Assembly: GCF_026210795.1 (NCBI RefSeq)
Contig: NC_089437.1
Location: 2,666,001-2,730,000, forward strand
Reading direction: 5' to 3'
Source: Rhizophagus irregularis
Lineage: Eukaryota; Glomeromycota; Glomeromycetes; Glomerales; Glomeraceae
Length of the DNA: 64,000 nucleotides
Positions 3,296 to 30,800 of the stretch are shown here, in pieces (position 1 is the first letter of the stretch; each line of letters starts with the position of its first letter). A model generated the notes under the pieces. That model was not told the origin of the DNA and did not search any database. It saw nothing but the letters and a program-made list of their open reading frames with translations. The position numbers were made by a program, and so were the translations under genes.

Positions 3296-5199
3296 CTCAT
3301 TTAACTGATTAAAATAATTTTGTGTAATATAAGAACTAATTAAACGTCAACTCAAAGAACAAATGGACAGATAACAGGATATTTTGTACCATTATAGCTA
3401 GAAGATATAGAATCCGACCACTATACTTCCATTGACTAACTTGAAGCAGCTTACGTCCGCCAAACTCTTTTTGCCAAAAATTTCAGTTTCATCACCAATT
3501 AGTTTCAGTTTCGTCATTGACTGAACTATATAATAATAATTTTTAATTTTAATTTTAATTATATAAAATTATAGTTTTATTATAAAAATATATAAAATTA
3601 ATTATATTTATAATAGTTTTATAAATTCTTTTTAAAAAATGTTATATTTTAATAAAAAAGTAATTATTATAATTAAAAATCCATGGAAATTTATGAAAAA
3701 TCTATAGAAATATCATGAAATATTGAATTTTGGCATTTTGTCTTTTAATTTTAAATGTTTAAACTATTTCAGTTTCGTCAAATGACTAAATATTTCAGTT
3801 TCACCCAGCATTTCTATAACTAATATATATTATACTTGAATATTACTTTTATATAAATAATAAATAGCAAAAAATCTGGATAAAAAAAAATATTTTGCAT
3901 TTAAATATTTAATTGCTGATCCTCATATGATAGGTAGAAATTTTGTGTAACTATTATGGAGCTATGATTTATAATTAAAATAAATATATTCTGAATCTCA
4001 TGTTTCCTATTTTTAAAAATATTAAAAGAATACTTTACTTCTAGAAAACTTGTTATTATTGGTAACTTAATACCAATGAGAACTTCATTATGGTCCTTTT
4101 TCATGAGTTTAATGGTATTATTTATTTTAACTTCCAAATTTAAGATTCTAATACCTATGCTATTCCAATAAAACTTGACTTTCAAGTTACTTGAAATTCA
4201 ATTAAAAACACTTCATTATTAGAATAGTTTGCAACTTAAAAAATCCAAATACACTAAGTTTTATTTGTGAAGAAAAAGGAATTAATAGTGGAGTTTTATC
4301 TAGTTCTTTTGCTGCTATAAACACCATTTATAAATGTGTATTTGATAATAAAATAAACAAAATATCTAGAAGCAATAATATTAGGTTTTTATGATTCTTA
4401 TATGATTCAACAAATACTCAATAATGTAGATTTTTATCCTTTTACAATTTATTTATATAATATTATGATTTTTCATCAGTAAGTTAGGTCGGCATAAATC
4501 ATTGTATTGAAAAGCACTGTAAAATTTGGCGCATTGATCATTGCAATGATTTATGCCAACAAAATACTAAACAATGCACCAATTATTCAGTGCAATGATC
4601 ATTGTATTGGAAAGTGCATTGATTACTGTGACATAATTCAGCACCTTGATTAGTGTTAAAAGTTTCAGTGCGAATCTGTGACACAAAATTGCAAAGTTTA
4701 TTTACCTAACTTTAAGTTTATTTTTTATTAAGTTTATTTAGGTATATGGCTTCTTTCTTCGAAGCTGAAGTTTATTTTGCTTCAGTTTCGGTATTATTAC
4801 TTTATGATTTATCTTTTTATTTTTTTTATTCGCTCATACTTTTTATTTTTTTTATTGCTCATACTAATTATGTTTTTTCTTAACATTCAAACATAGAAAT
4901 AACATGAAACTTACCCTTACAACATTTCAAGTCAAGAAGCTGACAACATAAAAGAAAATAAAAATAGAACGTTAATTAACGCTCTTAAAGTAAAAAAAAT
5001 TAAAAATCTAAAAAAGTAAGTCTCTTTTTTATCCTTTTGTTTCTTTTAATTTTTTTAATTTCCCTTTGTTGATTGCGTTTTTTTTTGTAGAAATGGATTG
5101 ATAATTTGAAAATAGTTCCGATCGGTGGTATTACTAGTCATATGACTTATGGCCAAACCGATTTAGATAATCTTTTTTTAAGAGTTTTAAGAAAATTTT

Positions 5200-6775
5200 T
5201 TCTTTTTTATTTTAGGTAGAGAAGCTCGAGTGAAAACGGGATATTAAGGTATTTTTATTAATATTATTTTATTTATCATTATTTTTTTAGGAATGAAATT
5301 GACTTTTTCTTTTCATTTAGGAATAGTTCTTTGGCAGATTTCCTAGACTTTCTGAAAAGATAAGTGTTTTTTTGGAGTGTATGATAGCGTAATGGCGTTA
5401 GGAAACAATACTAACCCCATTTTTTTTATTCTTTTAGGTCCTTGAACACTCCTGAACGCTTCCTGAAATACAGATTTGAAGGTAGGCAGGTGTGTGCTGT
5501 GTATTGGTGTTAGAAAACAATACTAACGCCTTTTTTTTATTCTTTTAAATTCTTGGACGCTTCCTGGAATATAGATTCAAAGGTAGATAGGTATATGGTG
5601 TATATTTGCATTAGGAAACAATAATAATGCCTTTTTTTATTATTTTTTTAGGTTATTAGAAGCAAAATTTGCGGTAAGTTTCTTTGAGTGAATGCGTGGT
5701 AGTTAATGGCGTTATGATAATATTAATACCTTTTATTTTTTTTAGATCGTTTGTTAGAATTGAACCAACTGGGACTATGACCAAACCATTAACAACAGGT
5801 AAAAATGGTAGAATATTTCTATTTTTTTTAAAGAAGCGTTATATTAACATTTCTTTGTATTTTGTAGGTTCTTCTGGCTTCCCTTTACCATTGGATTCCT
5901 AGTAGGTATTTTGAAGTTAATTTTGATTTTTTTTTTGAAGTGCTATATTAACACTTTTTCTTTGTATTTTGTAGGTTTCTTTCAGCTTTCGGCATTGGAT
6001 ATTTGGATATCGGGTAGGCTTTAAAGACGAAAATTTGTTTTTTATTATTTTTTTTGAAGTGTTATACTAACACTTCTTTTATATTTTGTAGATTTCGTTC
6101 GGCATTGGATACTGAATACCGAGTATGCTTTAAAAACGAAATTTTTTTTATTATTTTTTTTGAAATATTAACTAATACTTCTTATATATTTTGTAGGTTT
6201 CTGCTTCAATATTTGGCTGCTCATGTAGTAAGTTTCTGGAAATTAATTTCAAAATTATTTATTTATTTTTTTTAAAAGAAACGTTTACTAACGTTTCATT
6301 TTTTCTTTTTTACTCAGTATAGATTTCAGCTTTGCATTTAGGTGTTAAATTTTTGGTAAGTTTTGAAGTTATATCATAACTTTAAAACTATTTGTTTTTT
6401 TTAAAAGAATCGTTTTATTAACATTTCTTTTTGTTTTTTCTTGTAGAAATTAATTTTGAATTTAAAGCTTTAAGTTTGGAAGAAAGCAATTTATTATGAC
6501 ACCATAGTCCCGTTCAGGTGTCTTTTTTAAAAATTTCAATTTTTTTTTTTTTAATATCAGATAAATTTTTTTATTAAATTTTTTTTATTTTAGGAACGAT
6601 TCAGCTCGGCAATTTCTTGGAATGGATATTTCTTGTAAGACTTGTGAGTTTTAGAAAGGATTTTTTTTAAAAATCTTAATGAAAACGTTATTAAATTAAT
6701 GTTTCTATCTTATTTTATTTTTAGGAACGGTAGATTTCTTGAAATGGGACTTATCATTATTTACAATAATGTGAG
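5200..6775 (+). other. Array of microexon/intron-like units in E1
   Basis: About ten repeats of one pattern: a poly-T stretch ending TTTTAG or TTTGTAG, a 30-55 nt segment, then GGTA-type donor sequence, then an intron-sized gap of 60-90 bp. Many gaps hold an inverted repeat with the branch-site consensus in its loop, for example GAAGTGTTA-TAC-TAACACTTC near 6055-6077, which spells TACTAAC. Several exon-like parts share the string CGGCATTGGATA. This could be a multi-exon gene of the element, or a non-coding array mimicking splice signals. Individual joins are not fixed. Confidence 0.55.
5746..5798 (+). CDS. E1 exon conserved with E2 (peptide with IEPTGTM)
   Basis: A 53-nt segment between a TTTTTTTTTAG acceptor and a CAG|GTAAAA donor. 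One frame reads FVRIEPTGTMTKPLTT. The last exon-like segment of E2 (30340-30421) reads FVGIEPTGTMSKLLTT. Of six nucleotide differences over the 48 shared bases, three are silent third-position changes, which suggests the segment is or was translated. I recognise no family. It is part of a longer spliced product that I cannot reconstruct. Confidence 0.5.
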
Positions 6776-7088
6776 TTTCGGGGATAATTTAAATTAAATA
6801 TATACTATAATAGACAGTTAGGTATATGAAAATAAAATAAATACAGTAAAATAAATAAATTAATTAATTAATAAATTAATAAATAAATAGAATAAAATGA
6901 AATTAAATAAATAAATTAAATAAAAAAATCTGTGCAATGATTTATGCGATGTAGATAAAACAGTGCGTTGATTGATGCTATTTTTCAATGCGCTGTTCTG
7001 TGTTGCCTTCGTAGAATCACATGATTTCACGCTGATCTGTGTTGGCATAAAACAATGCGCAGTTTTATGCGCACTTAACTTACTGATG

Positions 7089-24842: not shown

Positions 24843-26389
24843 ACCATTATATTGAGTACTTAGTTCCTCAAGCAATAGCACTACTATTGAAGACAACCCC
24901 TATCAGGCCACTTTTAAGGCTGATTTGAAGTTAGGAATACGCTGCTTACTCATCCTATATCCATTGCATGATACTGTCATACTGGTACTCAATTTATTTT
25001 ATGACTTTTAGAGAGCACCTACTTTCATAGAAGACTTTCGATAGGTAACATTAACCATCTAGTACTCTTCCATACCACCATTTTAGATACTAAGTCTCAC
25101 TCGAAGGTCACTATAGGTCTACAGCTTACGATTACCCAGCATTGATAGTACAGTTGTTTATCCAAGTGGTATACTTTGTAGTGACCATTCAGATAGGAAG
25201 TAGCAGGTATCTGTCCAGGATCACCCCTTATGGTAGGTATTAACCACCAGGGATCATTAACCAGGATCCAAGAAGTGGGGAATCGAATTTCATAACCATG
25301 CTACCTGTTCTGTGTATGAATACCTTGGTTGGTCTAAGACTTAACAGAAGGTCAAACTACCACTAAGACATTGCACCCTCAGCTTTACCATCTAGGACAA
25401 CCATCTAGCCATTACTGACCTCAAGCGGTATCGTGAAGTGACTATCTGGACAGGAAGTCTCTCTAAGATATACATCCAGTGACTTCAAAGACAAAACTGC
25501 ACACATGCCAATGGCCTCATAGGGAACGTTAGAAGGACACCATGACTCTTAGTTGAAATGTACGGCTTAACTGTATACACTAATTTACCATAATGCAGTC
25601 TATTGAGTCCAACTATACTAATCACTGTCATCGGGAAATTTTTTAAAATGCAGAACTGCAGAGATCTGTAAAATTAGCAGATCTCCGCATTTTTTTTTGT
25701 GAATTTATGCGGAAGTCTGTGATTTTGCAGATTTCTGCTTTTTATTTTTTACAAAGTTATGCAATAATCTGCAATTTTGCAAGTTTCCGATTTTTTATGT
25801 ATGAATTTCTGCGGTAATCTGCGATTTTGCAGATTTCTGCTTTTTTTTATGTGAAATTTATGCGGAAGTCTGCAATTTTGCAGATTTTTGCTTTTTTTTC
25901 ATTAAAATATCAGTTCGATCTGCAATTTCATCATCGATTTAATATTTAAACTTTAATTAACTCTAACTTGATTTAATACCTAAATGATTTTTTCTACAAT
26001 ACTCTTTAAAAAAAAAAACTTTACAAGACTTTAAAAAAATAATTTTTTCTACAACACTTATTACTAAAGAAAAAAACTTTGTGAAATAATTTTTCTACAA
26101 CACCTTTTAGAAAATAATTTGTTAAAGATTTCAAAGAAAAAATATTTCTATTATTTTTTAAGCTTCAAACTTATCAGAGAAATTTTTTTTAAAAAAAAAA
26201 ATTTATTTGCAAGGTTCGAGTCTTTAAGGCAAATTTGTCCAACATTCGGCACATAATCTGCAACATGCAGGGAAATTAGAACTAAAAAAGGAGTCGTATT
26301 CCTTTTTTTTCTTTGAAAAAAAAAAAATTTTTTTTAATGAACGTCAGTTAACGTTCAGTTTGTAAGTCAAAAACATAATAGAGTCTTTA

Positions 26390-27080
26390 TTGTCAATTTA
26401 ATTTGGAGGTATATCACCTCTGAAACTTTAATTATTTTTAGAGAAAAAAAAAATTTTTTATATTATATAGGTTATGGATGGAACCTATCGATGATTTTAG
26501 TTGGAATTCGGAGGTATGCTTACCTCCGAAATTTAATTTATTTTTTTTAAAAAAAAAATTTTTTTTTTTATATTATATAGGTTCCGGATAGAACCTATCA
26601 AAGATATTGGAATTCGGAGGTATGCTTACCTCCGAATCTTAATTTATTTTTTTTAAAAAAAATAATTTTTTTTATATTATATAGGTTCGGATGGAACCTA
26701 TCAAAGATATTGGAATTCAGAGGTATACTTACCTCTGAATCTTAATTTATTTAAAAAAAAAATAATAATTTTTTATTCATATTATATAGGTTCCGGATGG
26801 GAATCTATCGATGATTTTGAAATTCAGAGGTATATTAACTTCCGAATCTTTAATTTATTTTTTAAAAAAAAATAATTTTTATTATATTATATAGGTTCCG
26901 GATGGAACCTATTGATGATTTTTGGAATTCAGAGGTATGCTTACCTCCGAATCTTAATTTATTTTCAAAAAAAAAATAATTTTTTTATTATATTATATAG
27001 GTTCTGGATGGAACCTATTGATGATTTTTGGAATTCAGAGGTATGCTTACCTCTGAATCTTAATTTATTTTAAAAAAATA
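26390..27080 (+). other. Array part A: about seven units of 105 bp with splice-site hairpins
   Basis: Each unit has an acceptor-like TATTATATAG, a segment of about 39-44 nt, the donor-like GAG|GTATGCTTACC, then a T/A-rich gap. The acceptor sits in ATAGGTTCC-GGAT-GGAACCTAT, a perfect 9-bp stem. The donor sits in GGAGGT-ATGCTT-ACCTCC or its AGAGGT/ACCTCT version. Stem pairs change together in several units (GGAGGT with ACCTCC, AGAGGT with ACCTCT), as expected if the pairing matters. Whether it is spliced is unknown. Confidence 0.6.
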
Positions 27081-27774
27081 ATTTTTTATTTAACGAACGC
27101 CACTAACGTTCGTTTTTCATATTTTTAAGTCCTGGAAGCCAAAGTACGGCTCTAGACATTTTTTTTAATTAAGTTATCTAATGAATGTTGCTAATGTTCG
27201 ATTATAGGTCCTGGACGCCAAAGAACGGTTCCGGACATTTATTTTGAAGGTAAAACCTTTACCTTCAAAATTTTTTTTTATATTTTTGTTTAACGAACAT
27301 CGCTAACGTTCGTTTTTTATTTTTTTTTAGGTTCTGGACGCCAAAGTACGGCTCCGGACATTTATTTCGAAGGTAAAATTTACCTCCAAATTTTTTTTTA
27401 TTTTATTTATACCTACGAACGTTAATTTACATTCGTTTTTACATTTTATAGGTCCTGGACGCCAAAGTACGGCTTCGGACGTTAATTTCGAAGGTAAAAC
27501 CTTTACCTTCAAATTTTTTTTTATTATTATTTAACGAACGTTAATTAATGTTCGTTTTTATATTTTATAGGTCCTGGACACCAAAACCAGCTCCGGACTT
27601 TACTTTGAAGGTAAAACCTTCGAAAAAAAAAAATTTTTTTTTTTTGTTAACTTTATTGATGAACGTTAACTAAGTTTCATCTTATTTTTTTAGATAAAGG
27701 AAGCCGAAACTGAGTTCCGGGCTCCTATATCGAAGGTAAAACAAACCTTCAAATTTTTTTTTCTTTTTATTTAA

Positions 27775-28149
27775 AGGTAGTGTGTAGCACGTGATTTTTT
27801 AATATATATTGTATAGCAAATTTTTTTGCCGATCATTTGTTTACATTTTATCTATCACCGCGTGTTACATTTAATATAAACAACCAATAAAATTTAAGAT
27901 TGCCTATTCGCAAAATCATATATTCCTATTCGCAATTTCATATGAGGGTTTTTGAAAATTTTTTTTAAGGAATAAAGTTTTTTAAAGTCAATAGACAAAG
28001 TTCGAAAATGTGACTTTCTAACCATATAATTTTTATCCTTTTATGTTAAGTATAACAAAAGTTTATATTGCACAGAAATTTGCGTTACTATATAATATAA
28101 AATTTGCCATGTCAATCAATATGAAACTATCACGTGATACACAATACCT
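27775..28149. mobile_element. piggyBac-like MITE in TTAA, inside an array intron
   Basis: TTAA at 27771-27774 and 28150-28153 flanks inverted ends AGGTAGTGTGTAGCACGTGAT and AGGTATTGTGTATCACGTGAT (right end read inward). TTAA duplication is the hallmark of piggyBac elements. 375 bp with no frame. It lies in an intron-like gap and leaves both neighbouring exon-like segments intact. Confidence 0.75.
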
Positions 28150-28656
28150 TTAAACGAACGTTCACTAACGTTCATTATTCTTTTTTTTTAGGTAAAGGAA
28201 GCCGAAAGAACTTCCATATTGAAGGTAAAATCTTCGATTTTTTTTTTATTATTTTATTTAATGAACGTTACTAATTCTAACGTTCATTTTTTTACTTTTC
28301 GTAGGCACAACCGTACAAGAAACTGAAAGGCAGGTTCTGGTCTCCTATTTCGAAGGTAAGGCTTCGAAATTTTATTTTACTTTTTTTCTTTTATTTTAGC
28401 GAAACGTTTACTAACGTTTCGTTTTTCTTTTTTGTAGGACTACGGCACTTCAGACGCTTTGTGGGCTCTATTTCGAAGGTATATTATCCTTTATATTCTT
28501 CGAAAGTGTTTATTTTTATTAGTTTTTTTTACGAACGTTAACTAATGTTCATTTTCATTTTTGTAGGTTCAAGATGCCGAAAGTACGTGTCTCGGATTCA
28601 ATTTCGAAGGTAAATAACTTCGAAAAAAAAGGAATCTCTTTTTTTTTTAACGAACG

Positions 28657-28955
28657 TAGGACCCCGGATATCTAATATAAAGGTCATAATGGACTTTTGG
28701 CCAAAAACACCCCTTTTTGCTAAAACTCAAAAAATCGTTTTTTGTAAATATCTCAGCATCCAGTAATTCAATTTTAATGAACTTTTTTTTATTTTGTAGC
28801 CCTCATTTAGCTCTACAATTTAAAAAAAAGTTCATCAAAATTGGACCACTGGATGCCGAGACATTTACAAAAAACGATTTTTTGAGCCCCTGAAAAATGG
28901 GCCAATCTGCCGAAAGTGTGACTTATGACCTGTTTTGGAGATATCTGGGGTCCTA
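28657..28955. mobile_element. 299-bp foldback MITE with CGAACG duplication, inside an array intron
   Basis: CGAACG at 28651-28656 and 28956-28961 flanks inverted ends TAGGACCCCGGATATCT and TAGGACCCCAGATATCT. The interior is a further inverted repeat: AAAAAATCGTTTTTTGTAAATATCTC ... and its inverse, with the CATCCAG-type motif seen in other elements. It split the branch-site hairpin of one intron-like gap: joining the two sides at the duplicated site restores AACGAACGTTCACTAACGTT. Confidence 0.8.
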
Positions 28956-30339
28956 CGAACGTTCACTAACGTTCGTTTTTCTCTTTCTTTGTAGGTCCAG
29001 GACGCCGAAGGACTTTAATTTCGAAGGTAAACTTCGATTTTATTTTTTTTGTTTATTTTAATGAAGCGTTATTAACGTTTCAATTTTCTTTTTTTAGGTT
29101 TCCGGCTCTCTTGAATTCTCCTGGACGGAATTTCGAAGGTATTTCTTCAAAATTCTTTTATTTTTTTTATTTTATTGTTGTAAAAGAATGTTTCTAACGT
29201 TCTTTATTCTTTTTTTTTAGATTTTCGGCTCTCTGGTTTCAGCCTGGATGGAATTTTCAACATGGTTAGTTTCGTAATGAACTTTTCGTTACGAAACTGT
29301 TTTTTTTTTATTTTATTTAAACGAAATGTTACTAACATTTCGATTTCTTTTTCTTTTGTAGGTTTTCTAGTAGCCACCTGGATTGGACGGGATTTCGAAG
29401 GTGAAACTTCGAAATTATTGTATTTTCATTTTTTATTTGAACGAAACGTAGACTAACGTTTTGATATTATTCTTTTGTAGGTTGACGGCTTCCTGTAACC
29501 CTCCTGAAAAGAATTTCGAAGGTATACTTCGAAATTCTTTTACTTTTTTTATTATTTTTGATGAAACGTTACTAATGTTTCATTTTTCTTTTTTTGTAGG
29601 TTGACGGCTTCCTGTGAACCTTTCCGATTCTGAACATTCAAAAAGAATCCACTCTTCCATCTTTCTCTGTCTTCGTGGCGATATGCAAATTTTTGTTAAA
29701 AAACTATTACTTTGGAAGTTGAGTCTTCTGGAATGAATTTTGAAGGTAAACTTTGAAATTCTTTTACTTTTTTTGTTTTTTTTTATTTGAACGAAACGTT
29801 TACTAACGTTTCAATTTTCCCTTTTTACGGCTTTCCAGATGCCTCCTGGATGAAATTTCAAAGGTAAAACTTTGAAAAAATATTTTTTTTTTGTTTTATT
29901 TTAACGAACGTTCATTGACGTTTGTTTTTATTTTTGTAGATCCAGGATGCTGCCAGATTTCCATATCGAAGGTAAAACCTTCGAAAATTATTTTTTATTA
30001 ATTAATTTATTGACGAACGTTAATTAACGTTTGTACATCTTTTTTTTAGGTAAAGGAAGCCGAAAGACAAGTTCCGAACTCCCATATCAAAGGTAAAACC
30101 TTCCAAAATTATTTTTTATTAATTTATTTGACGAACGTTAGTAACGTTCATATTTCTTTTATTTTAGGTCCCAGATTCCCATTTAAAGAACTTCAAAGGT
30201 AAATACTTTGAAGTTTCTTTTTTTTTACTTCTTTAACGATTGTTATACTAATGATCATTTTTTCTTCTATGTTTAGGTCCCAGACTGCTGGGTTAGATAT
30301 TTCGAAGCTGCTTGCTTCAAAATTTTTTTTCGTTTGTAG

Positions 30340-30421
30340 GTATCCGTTGTTTGTTGGAATCGAACCAACTGGAACAATGTCCAAACTATTAACAACATGT
30401 AAATGTGCAGTAAAGAGATGA
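30340..30421 (+). CDS. Last E2 exon-like segment (peptide with IEPTGTM)
   Basis: Follows CGTTTGTAG. In one frame it reads FVGIEPTGTMSKLLTT, then CKCAVKR and TGA. It corresponds to the E1 exon at 5746-5798, but where E1 has CAG|GTAAAA this copy reads CATGTAAATG, so it would end the frame here. Function unknown. Confidence 0.45.
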
Positions 30422-30800
30422 TGAATAGCAATGACTAGTAATAGATTTCAATTGTATTTGTAAACTTGTTAATATATAATAAAAAAGTAATTTTGATTAT
30501 ATAAATAAATTAGTAATTAATGCAATAAATTAATTTGTATTATTGTGACGCAGATTTTTACTGAAAAAAATTGCTGAGGTATTTTGAAGGTTTTTATTTA
30601 AAAATCTGCGCAGAACTTTGTTATTTATAAAATCTGCGCAGTTTTTTATTGGATTTTTCCTCTAATGTTTTGCGTCAGGGTATAAGATCTGCGCAGATAT
30701 AATTTCTGAAAATCTGCGCAGATCTGCTTCCCAAAAAATTTCCCGATGATACCTTCACGCTATTGAATGTAGCGTCTGCAATAAAATTCATTTTATTTCT

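Follow-up and report, generated by a model that had tools for sequence, protein, structure and literature searches.

How should one read a transposon-like element whose interior alternates, unit after unit, between short exon-like segments and intron-like gaps? Such an element lies at 25628-30749, with the array on its + strand, in a stretch of 64,000 nucleotides of Rhizophagus irregularis DNA (contig NC_089437.1, positions 2,666,001 to 2,730,000 of the forward strand), referred to here as the window. We compared it with related sequences in the genome (146.7 Mb searched, 32 contigs). By its sequence, the element is a non-autonomous transposon of the Plavaka type, and its array probably consists of introns that work, or did so until recently, within a non-coding transcript of such elements.

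The element is bounded by the 17-bp sequence TCATCGGGAAATTTTTT, which matches exactly at 25628-25644 (+) and at 30733-30749 (-), in agreement with the perfect inverted ends described in the initial annotation. In other places any of the four bases can stand at the position of the outermost T; the terminal inverted repeat (TIR) proper is therefore the 16-bp CATCGGGAAATTTTTT, to which one flanking T is added here. Inside the left TIR, subterminal GCAGA/TCTGC repeats (25645-25928), largely common to transposase-coding Plavaka elements, are followed on the + strand by an A+T-rich leader (25929-26408) located 5' of the first intron-like unit. The array itself comprises an A-block of tandem units of ~106 bp (26409-27040; exons 38-43 nt, introns 62-67 nt) and a B-block with units of ~100-136 bp (27041-30276), in which most exons measure 31-50 nt and introns 71-97 nt, apart from longer ones that hold miniature inverted-repeat transposable elements (MITEs). 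A last unit (30277-30339), in which the donor GT is gone (CGAAG/CTGC), leads into a 3' tail (30340-30560) with AATAAA at 30478, 30504 and 30524, all on the + strand. Finally, right subterminal CTGCGCAGAT repeats (30561-30732), common to the transposase-coding elements L020 and L021, precede the right TIR.

We listed 22 introns by hand, with lengths of 62-97 nt, separated by exons of typically 31-51 nt, the exceptions being one of 146 nt, which contains an extra insert, and one of ~23 nt. Four more units are degenerate or interrupted: those at 27041-27207, 27736-28191 (MITE inside), 28610-28994 (second MITE) and 29746-29840 (acceptor damaged). The total of ~26 intron-like units on the + strand comes close to the ~27 first proposed. 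GT-AG introns with a branch site are thus ordered on one strand, and three host introns viewed by eye were similar to them in size and signals. The A-block has a weak branch site, TTAAT, 43-48 nt from the acceptor; the order of donor, branch site and acceptor claimed at the outset stands, except that TACTAAC-like branch sites are not found in this first block (26409-27040).

The signals occur far above chance level. With both MITEs cut out of the element, a model-free pattern (AGGTA..YTAAY..YAG, in order at intron-like distances) was found 19 times on the + strand and once on the - strand, compared with a mean of 0.39 and a maximum of 2 in 300 dinucleotide shuffles, and ~0.8 per equal length in the rest of the window on either strand. 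A chaining scan, partly circular because its site models were trained on the window element itself, gave 21 introns on + and 2 on - in the MITE-free element; when the element including its MITEs was shuffled 100 times, the scan never gave more than 4.

The ends of the element reveal its identity. At other places in the genome, L020 and L021 share this TIR; the left end of the window element is 92% identical to L020 over 269 bp and 97% to L021 over 216 bp, and the right end 94% and 93% identical, respectively, over 171 bp. A further relative, L027, has more distant ends (85% over 94 bp and 76% over 158 bp). In Pfam, an exon of L021 matches the Plavaka transposase PF18759 (E 5.3e-24), and it has counterparts in L020 (98% identical) and L027 (69-73%). 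Another open reading frame (ORF) of L021 opens with a C2H2-like zinc finger that scores below the Pfam cut-off, and a single additional ORF from L020 and one from L027 had no Plavaka match in Pfam. The transposase exon of L021 has no match in the window element, and 25628-30749 contains no stop-to-stop ORF of at least 120 aa, which leaves the element without a transposase of its own. Among 31 loci tried, 24 contained a single TIR pair and no more; the 2-bp flanks agree in 21 of the 24, a short target duplication; those of the window copy (GT/AT) differ by one base. Because it shares its ends with the transposase-coding L020 and L021 and belongs to a family with 2-bp flanks, we classify this transposon-like element, as it was first called, as a non-autonomous Plavaka (CACTA/CMC) DNA transposon. 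Plavaka elements are prevalent in R. irregularis according to the accessible text of PMC11075540. The relatives also have a second long ORF, encoded on the other strand from the transposase exons (L020 5013 +, L021 4505 -, L027 4586 +; 0-based offsets), which reads TPTVESSEIP... in L020 and L021 and differs in L027.

The array is not confined to the window. Its 3' tail and right end recur in at least 40 places at 91-100% identity (40 of 190 candidates were scored). We scanned 32 sequences, namely the window element, 12 array-matched copies, four found by TIR pairs and 15 taken from 3'-tail places alone, and all 32 contained chains of 7-33 introns on the expected strand (1 to 8 on the other strand), including 15 of the 15 chosen by their tail only. 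The search for further copies advised in the initial annotation was thus productive, and its proposal that the units had been multiplied by copying agrees with the range of unit numbers among the copies. Unit number varies by local tandem gain, for instance of the last unit type in L018 and of a 42-nt unit in L039. Chains in the transposase-coding L020, L021 and L027 comprised 1-2 introns. L022 and L023 have the same 16-bp TIR with other subterminal repeats (CGATAAT type), indicating that one TIR serves several subfamilies; L022 scored 4 introns.

Similar arrays were found in two further repeat families. In the window, a second array-bearing element, E1 (4474-7088, +), has a different TIR, beginning CATCAGTAAGTTA, and TT/TT flanks, and holds a 3'-tail segment (~5750-5800) in common with the element at 25628-30749. 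The trained scan recovers 4 introns only from its array, and its centre has three near-complete matches at 98% and one partial copy in the genome. The other family, represented by the dispersed L043-L047, in which no TIR was found, has canonical donors like GTAAGTTTCG, branch regions like AACGTTAACTAACGTT and acceptors like TTTTTGTAG. Its exons differ from one another, measure 21-41 nt and are bordered by introns with GTAAG/GTGAG at the donor, CTAAC and TTGTAG. Intron chains in this family comprised 8 (L043), 10 (L045), 9 (L047), 5 (L044) and 4 (L046) introns, the score of L044 not being distinct from that of its other strand.

Does the array encode a protein? Exons shorter than 70 nt, to which the length and frame counts were limited, have lengths of 0, 1 and 2 modulo 3 in 228, 135 and 164 cases. 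In 29 of the 32 sequences, those with fewer than 8 short exons being excluded, the mean longest spliced open frame was 103.7 codons, exactly as after permutation of exon order (103.7), compared with 81.9 in dinucleotide shuffles; the excess over the shuffles is thus independent of exon order. Of 100 permutations of exon order, no more than 2 (L037) and 3 (L042) matched the spliced open frame of these two copies. Since the frames are no more coherent than in permuted order, a continuous protein from the array is unlikely, and the proposed reading as an extremely fragmented gene of the element finds no support, because the frames are incoherent, the exon lengths are mixed modulo 3 and the transposase is absent.

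The conserved tail is open in one frame (FVGIEPTGTMSKPLTT). Considered as coding sequence it was rejected: changes fall 42/57/47 by codon position among 31 distinct sequences, or 22/35/24 in the 26 unshifted ones, and 5 are frame-shifted. We also looked for a spliced retrocopy with a 24-letter exon-exon junction, allowing at most 3 mismatches, and the 33 places obtained all read ...TAG before the exon, corresponding to acceptor plus exon. At 30356-30366 in the tail, the minus strand reads GGTTCGATTCC, which we take to resemble a transfer RNA (tRNA) B box; ARAGORN gave no tRNA in the window and five related loci, and Rfam no convincing match to a known structured RNA.

Folding revealed a further property of the units. 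Donor sites tend to lie in hairpins, such as GAGGTATGCTTACCTC in the A-block, which is without TACTAAC, and around TTCGAAG/GTAAA in the B-block, where a dyad such as ACGTTNACTAACGT holds the branch site. We analyzed 107 units from 12 chosen sequences, reduced from 225 by merging units whose similarity exceeded 85%. Donor regions, taken as the last 14 exon and first 34 intron nucleotides, had a mean folding z of -2.60, with 80 of the 107 below -1.5, and the branch region a mean of -1.77 (53/107), compared with -0.17 (16/107) for control stretches elsewhere in the window and -0.34 (14/83) for exons alone. The donor hairpin crosses the exon-intron border in 84 of 107 units, with the GT itself paired in 67, and CTAAY has its branch adenosine paired in 34/56 cases in the units versus 42/137 elsewhere. 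Eight sample folds ranged from z -2.62 to +1.30, those of 29401-29480 and 26935-27000 not being below shuffles.

Furthermore, the arms of these hairpins covary between units; both the folding above controls and this covariation are new here. Outside the motif itself, branch arms form 5.38 of 8 Watson-Crick pairs with their own partner and 4.60 with swapped partners; none of 2000 swaps reached the value for own partners, nor did any of 2000 when arms were swapped within a locus. In purine/pyrimidine coding, where CpG transitions are invisible, the values were 6.38 and 5.93 (0/2000). A usable branch motif was present in 97 of 132 units in the arm-swap test and in 81 of 107 in a further test of covariation. 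Donor hairpins fold at -9.15 kcal/mol with their own exon tails and at -7.02 with swapped ones (sd 0.23, lowest -7.56, 60 swaps), a difference seen with folding and absent from a cruder ungapped pairing (own 6.85; swapped mean 6.74, max 6.91). The arm-swap tests leave the relatedness of units in place. The hairpins themselves are real, whether maintained by RNA or by DNA.

How might such an element have arisen and behave? Our preferred explanation would be that the interior of a transposon was replaced by a non-coding, intron-dense transcription unit, in which modules, each an intron of 60-100 nt plus a microexon of ~30-50 nt, were tandemly multiplied and reshuffled; a leader precedes them, and a conserved tail carrying poly(A)-like signals follows. 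A transposase from full-length relatives may act on the element, as suggested by the shared ends and the 2-bp flanks. Transcription from the left end would yield an RNA that the ordinary spliceosome would process via intron definition. As the donor and branch sites are often placed in short hairpins, this splicing may be slowed down, incomplete or dependent on conditions. One would expect a spliced non-coding RNA of ~1 kb with variants, and no protein.

Several observations weigh against working introns. In close copies, non-CpG positions of exons and branch regions have diverged by 6.08% and 6.54%, and those of donors and acceptors by less (4.64% and 4.65%), yet the latter two are not below intron interiors (4.31%) or T-rich tracts (4.38%); gap counts, unreliable where alignments overlapped, were set aside. 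The excess of substitutions outside the splice motifs that the initial annotation looked for between copies is therefore seen relative to exons and branch regions and fails relative to the other intron parts, a mixed outcome in which no clear constraint is visible since the copies spread. In six copies (group A), differences affect 221 of 2083 CpG positions (10.6%) and 179 of 15606 elsewhere (1.15%), with 353 transitions and 47 transversions; such CpG-concentrated decay is expected of methylated DNA, and many copies may be silent. In the 42-nt units of the C-block, the acceptor AG columns (0.89 and 0.83) do not exceed the mean column (0.888), though donor GT does. The stems show no preference for G-U over A-C cells, with 21 of each in branch arms (43 units; A-C 20.2 and G-U 21.5 after swapping, 24.2 units per shuffle) and a G-U to A-C ratio of 112 to 58 in donor arms, like the 136 to 66 of swapped arms, a balance that gives no sign of RNA-level selection as the cause of the hairpins. 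Hindered splicing is what one would expect where stems enclose the branch sites. Sequestering of a branch site can control splicing, as in the engineered switch of PMC2275289 (accessible text). We also list here the lack of an intronless copy in the genome for the one junction tested, which is in itself neutral.

The main rival is a satellite at the DNA level, in which one captured intron with its flanks was tandemly amplified and the splice motifs were inherited without being used, the palindromes driving or marking amplification through slippage, template switching or a protein-binding dyad. The free variation in unit number would fit such a satellite, as would A-C cells as frequent as G-U cells in the branch arms, where pairing in the + strand RNA is not visibly selected, and splice sites no less diverged than intron interiors in close copies. 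It accounts less readily for the strong one-strand bias, for similar signals in the same order around differing exons in three repeat families, for donors and acceptors diverging less than exons, and for a donor GT conserved at 0.98-1.00 over 65 tandem units versus 0.853 in G columns and 0.91 in T columns; in the A-block, donor GT and acceptor AG are both mildly above average conservation. We regard the satellite as possible, if somewhat improbable. At the opposite end stands a bolder version of the splicing explanation, which we consider doubtful: the introns would be hairpin-gated in several repeat families within a single fungus, two or more of which are TIR transposons. Every donor and every branch site would have a covarying stem-loop to itself, and RNA folding would switch exon choice along chains of up to 30 or more microexons, yielding many non-coding isoforms that serve the element.

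Two other explanations fare worse. A fast-evolving protein gene of the microexon type, comparable to the aphid bicycle genes or the schistosome micro-exon genes (MEGs), might have been carried by the transposon and be mostly decayed now. Many exons of 42 or 39 nt, the rarely matched frames of L037 and L042 and the excess over dinucleotide shuffles would suit it; the recurrent exon lengths of 29, 31, 38, 40, 41 and 52 nt break the frame, which is not kept through the spliced exons, and together with the permutation result and the codon-position pattern of the tail they make such a gene very unlikely. Least probable, with a slim chance at best, is a trigger or target of small-RNA silencing, in which a hairpin-rich, poorly spliced pre-RNA would feed RNA interference against the family. 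Most donor regions and half of the branch regions form hairpins, and the CpG decay is suggestive of silencing; both point in this direction, as does the listing of Plavaka among the superfamilies upregulated in colonised roots in the accessible text of PMC11075540; the stems, however, span only ~8-11 bp in the eight sample folds, which is short for Dicer.

The array has itself received insertions, both within introns. A MITE-like insert at 27776-28148 is not present in related copies. The palindromic MITE at 28658-28954 is flanked by 8-bp repeats (acgaacgt, 28650-28657 and 28955-28962) and was probably recently active, because it has many matches of 97-99% identity scattered across the genome. 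It sits inside a branch-site dyad.

If spliced, these would be the densest intron arrays in a transposon, with structure at most splice signals; we know of no denser one. They would also offer a natural series of 7-33 units for studying how the spliceosome handles exons of 30-50 nt and by which route the intron units become more numerous. Without splicing, they would be a satellite that carries splice-like signals along in large numbers, which should caution those who predict genes. Literature searches (microexons in Rhizophagus, micro-exon arrays with transposons, fungal introners, R. irregularis Plavaka), which left most subscription journals outside, found no paper describing such an array among those listed, nor did word searches of the accessible text of PMC11075540 and PMC9860276. 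Two-thirds of the transposable elements of this species are said to be unclassified (PMC11075540, accessible text).

Compared with known systems, the array shares features with several and coincides with none. Aphid bicycle effector genes have many microexons as well; they are coding and phase-conserved, and the array is neither. Schistosome MEGs also have many tiny exons, but they encode secreted proteins and have long introns (PMC10526429, accessible text), unlike the 60-100-nt introns, tandem-copy units and missing frame seen here. The SP7-like effectors of R. irregularis are likewise built of repeat units, which are however protein repeats after a conserved intron (PMC11333574, accessible text). 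In introners, intron units are multiplied with transposons (PMC9860276, accessible text) and enter many genes, whereas here intron and exon multiply jointly, in tandem, inside one transposon. Finally, the element resembles other Plavaka elements (EnSpm/CACTA/CMC; PF18759) in its terminal and subterminal repeats, its 2-bp flanks and its transposase-coding relatives in the same genome, and differs from them in an interior that is an intron-microexon array instead of a transposase.

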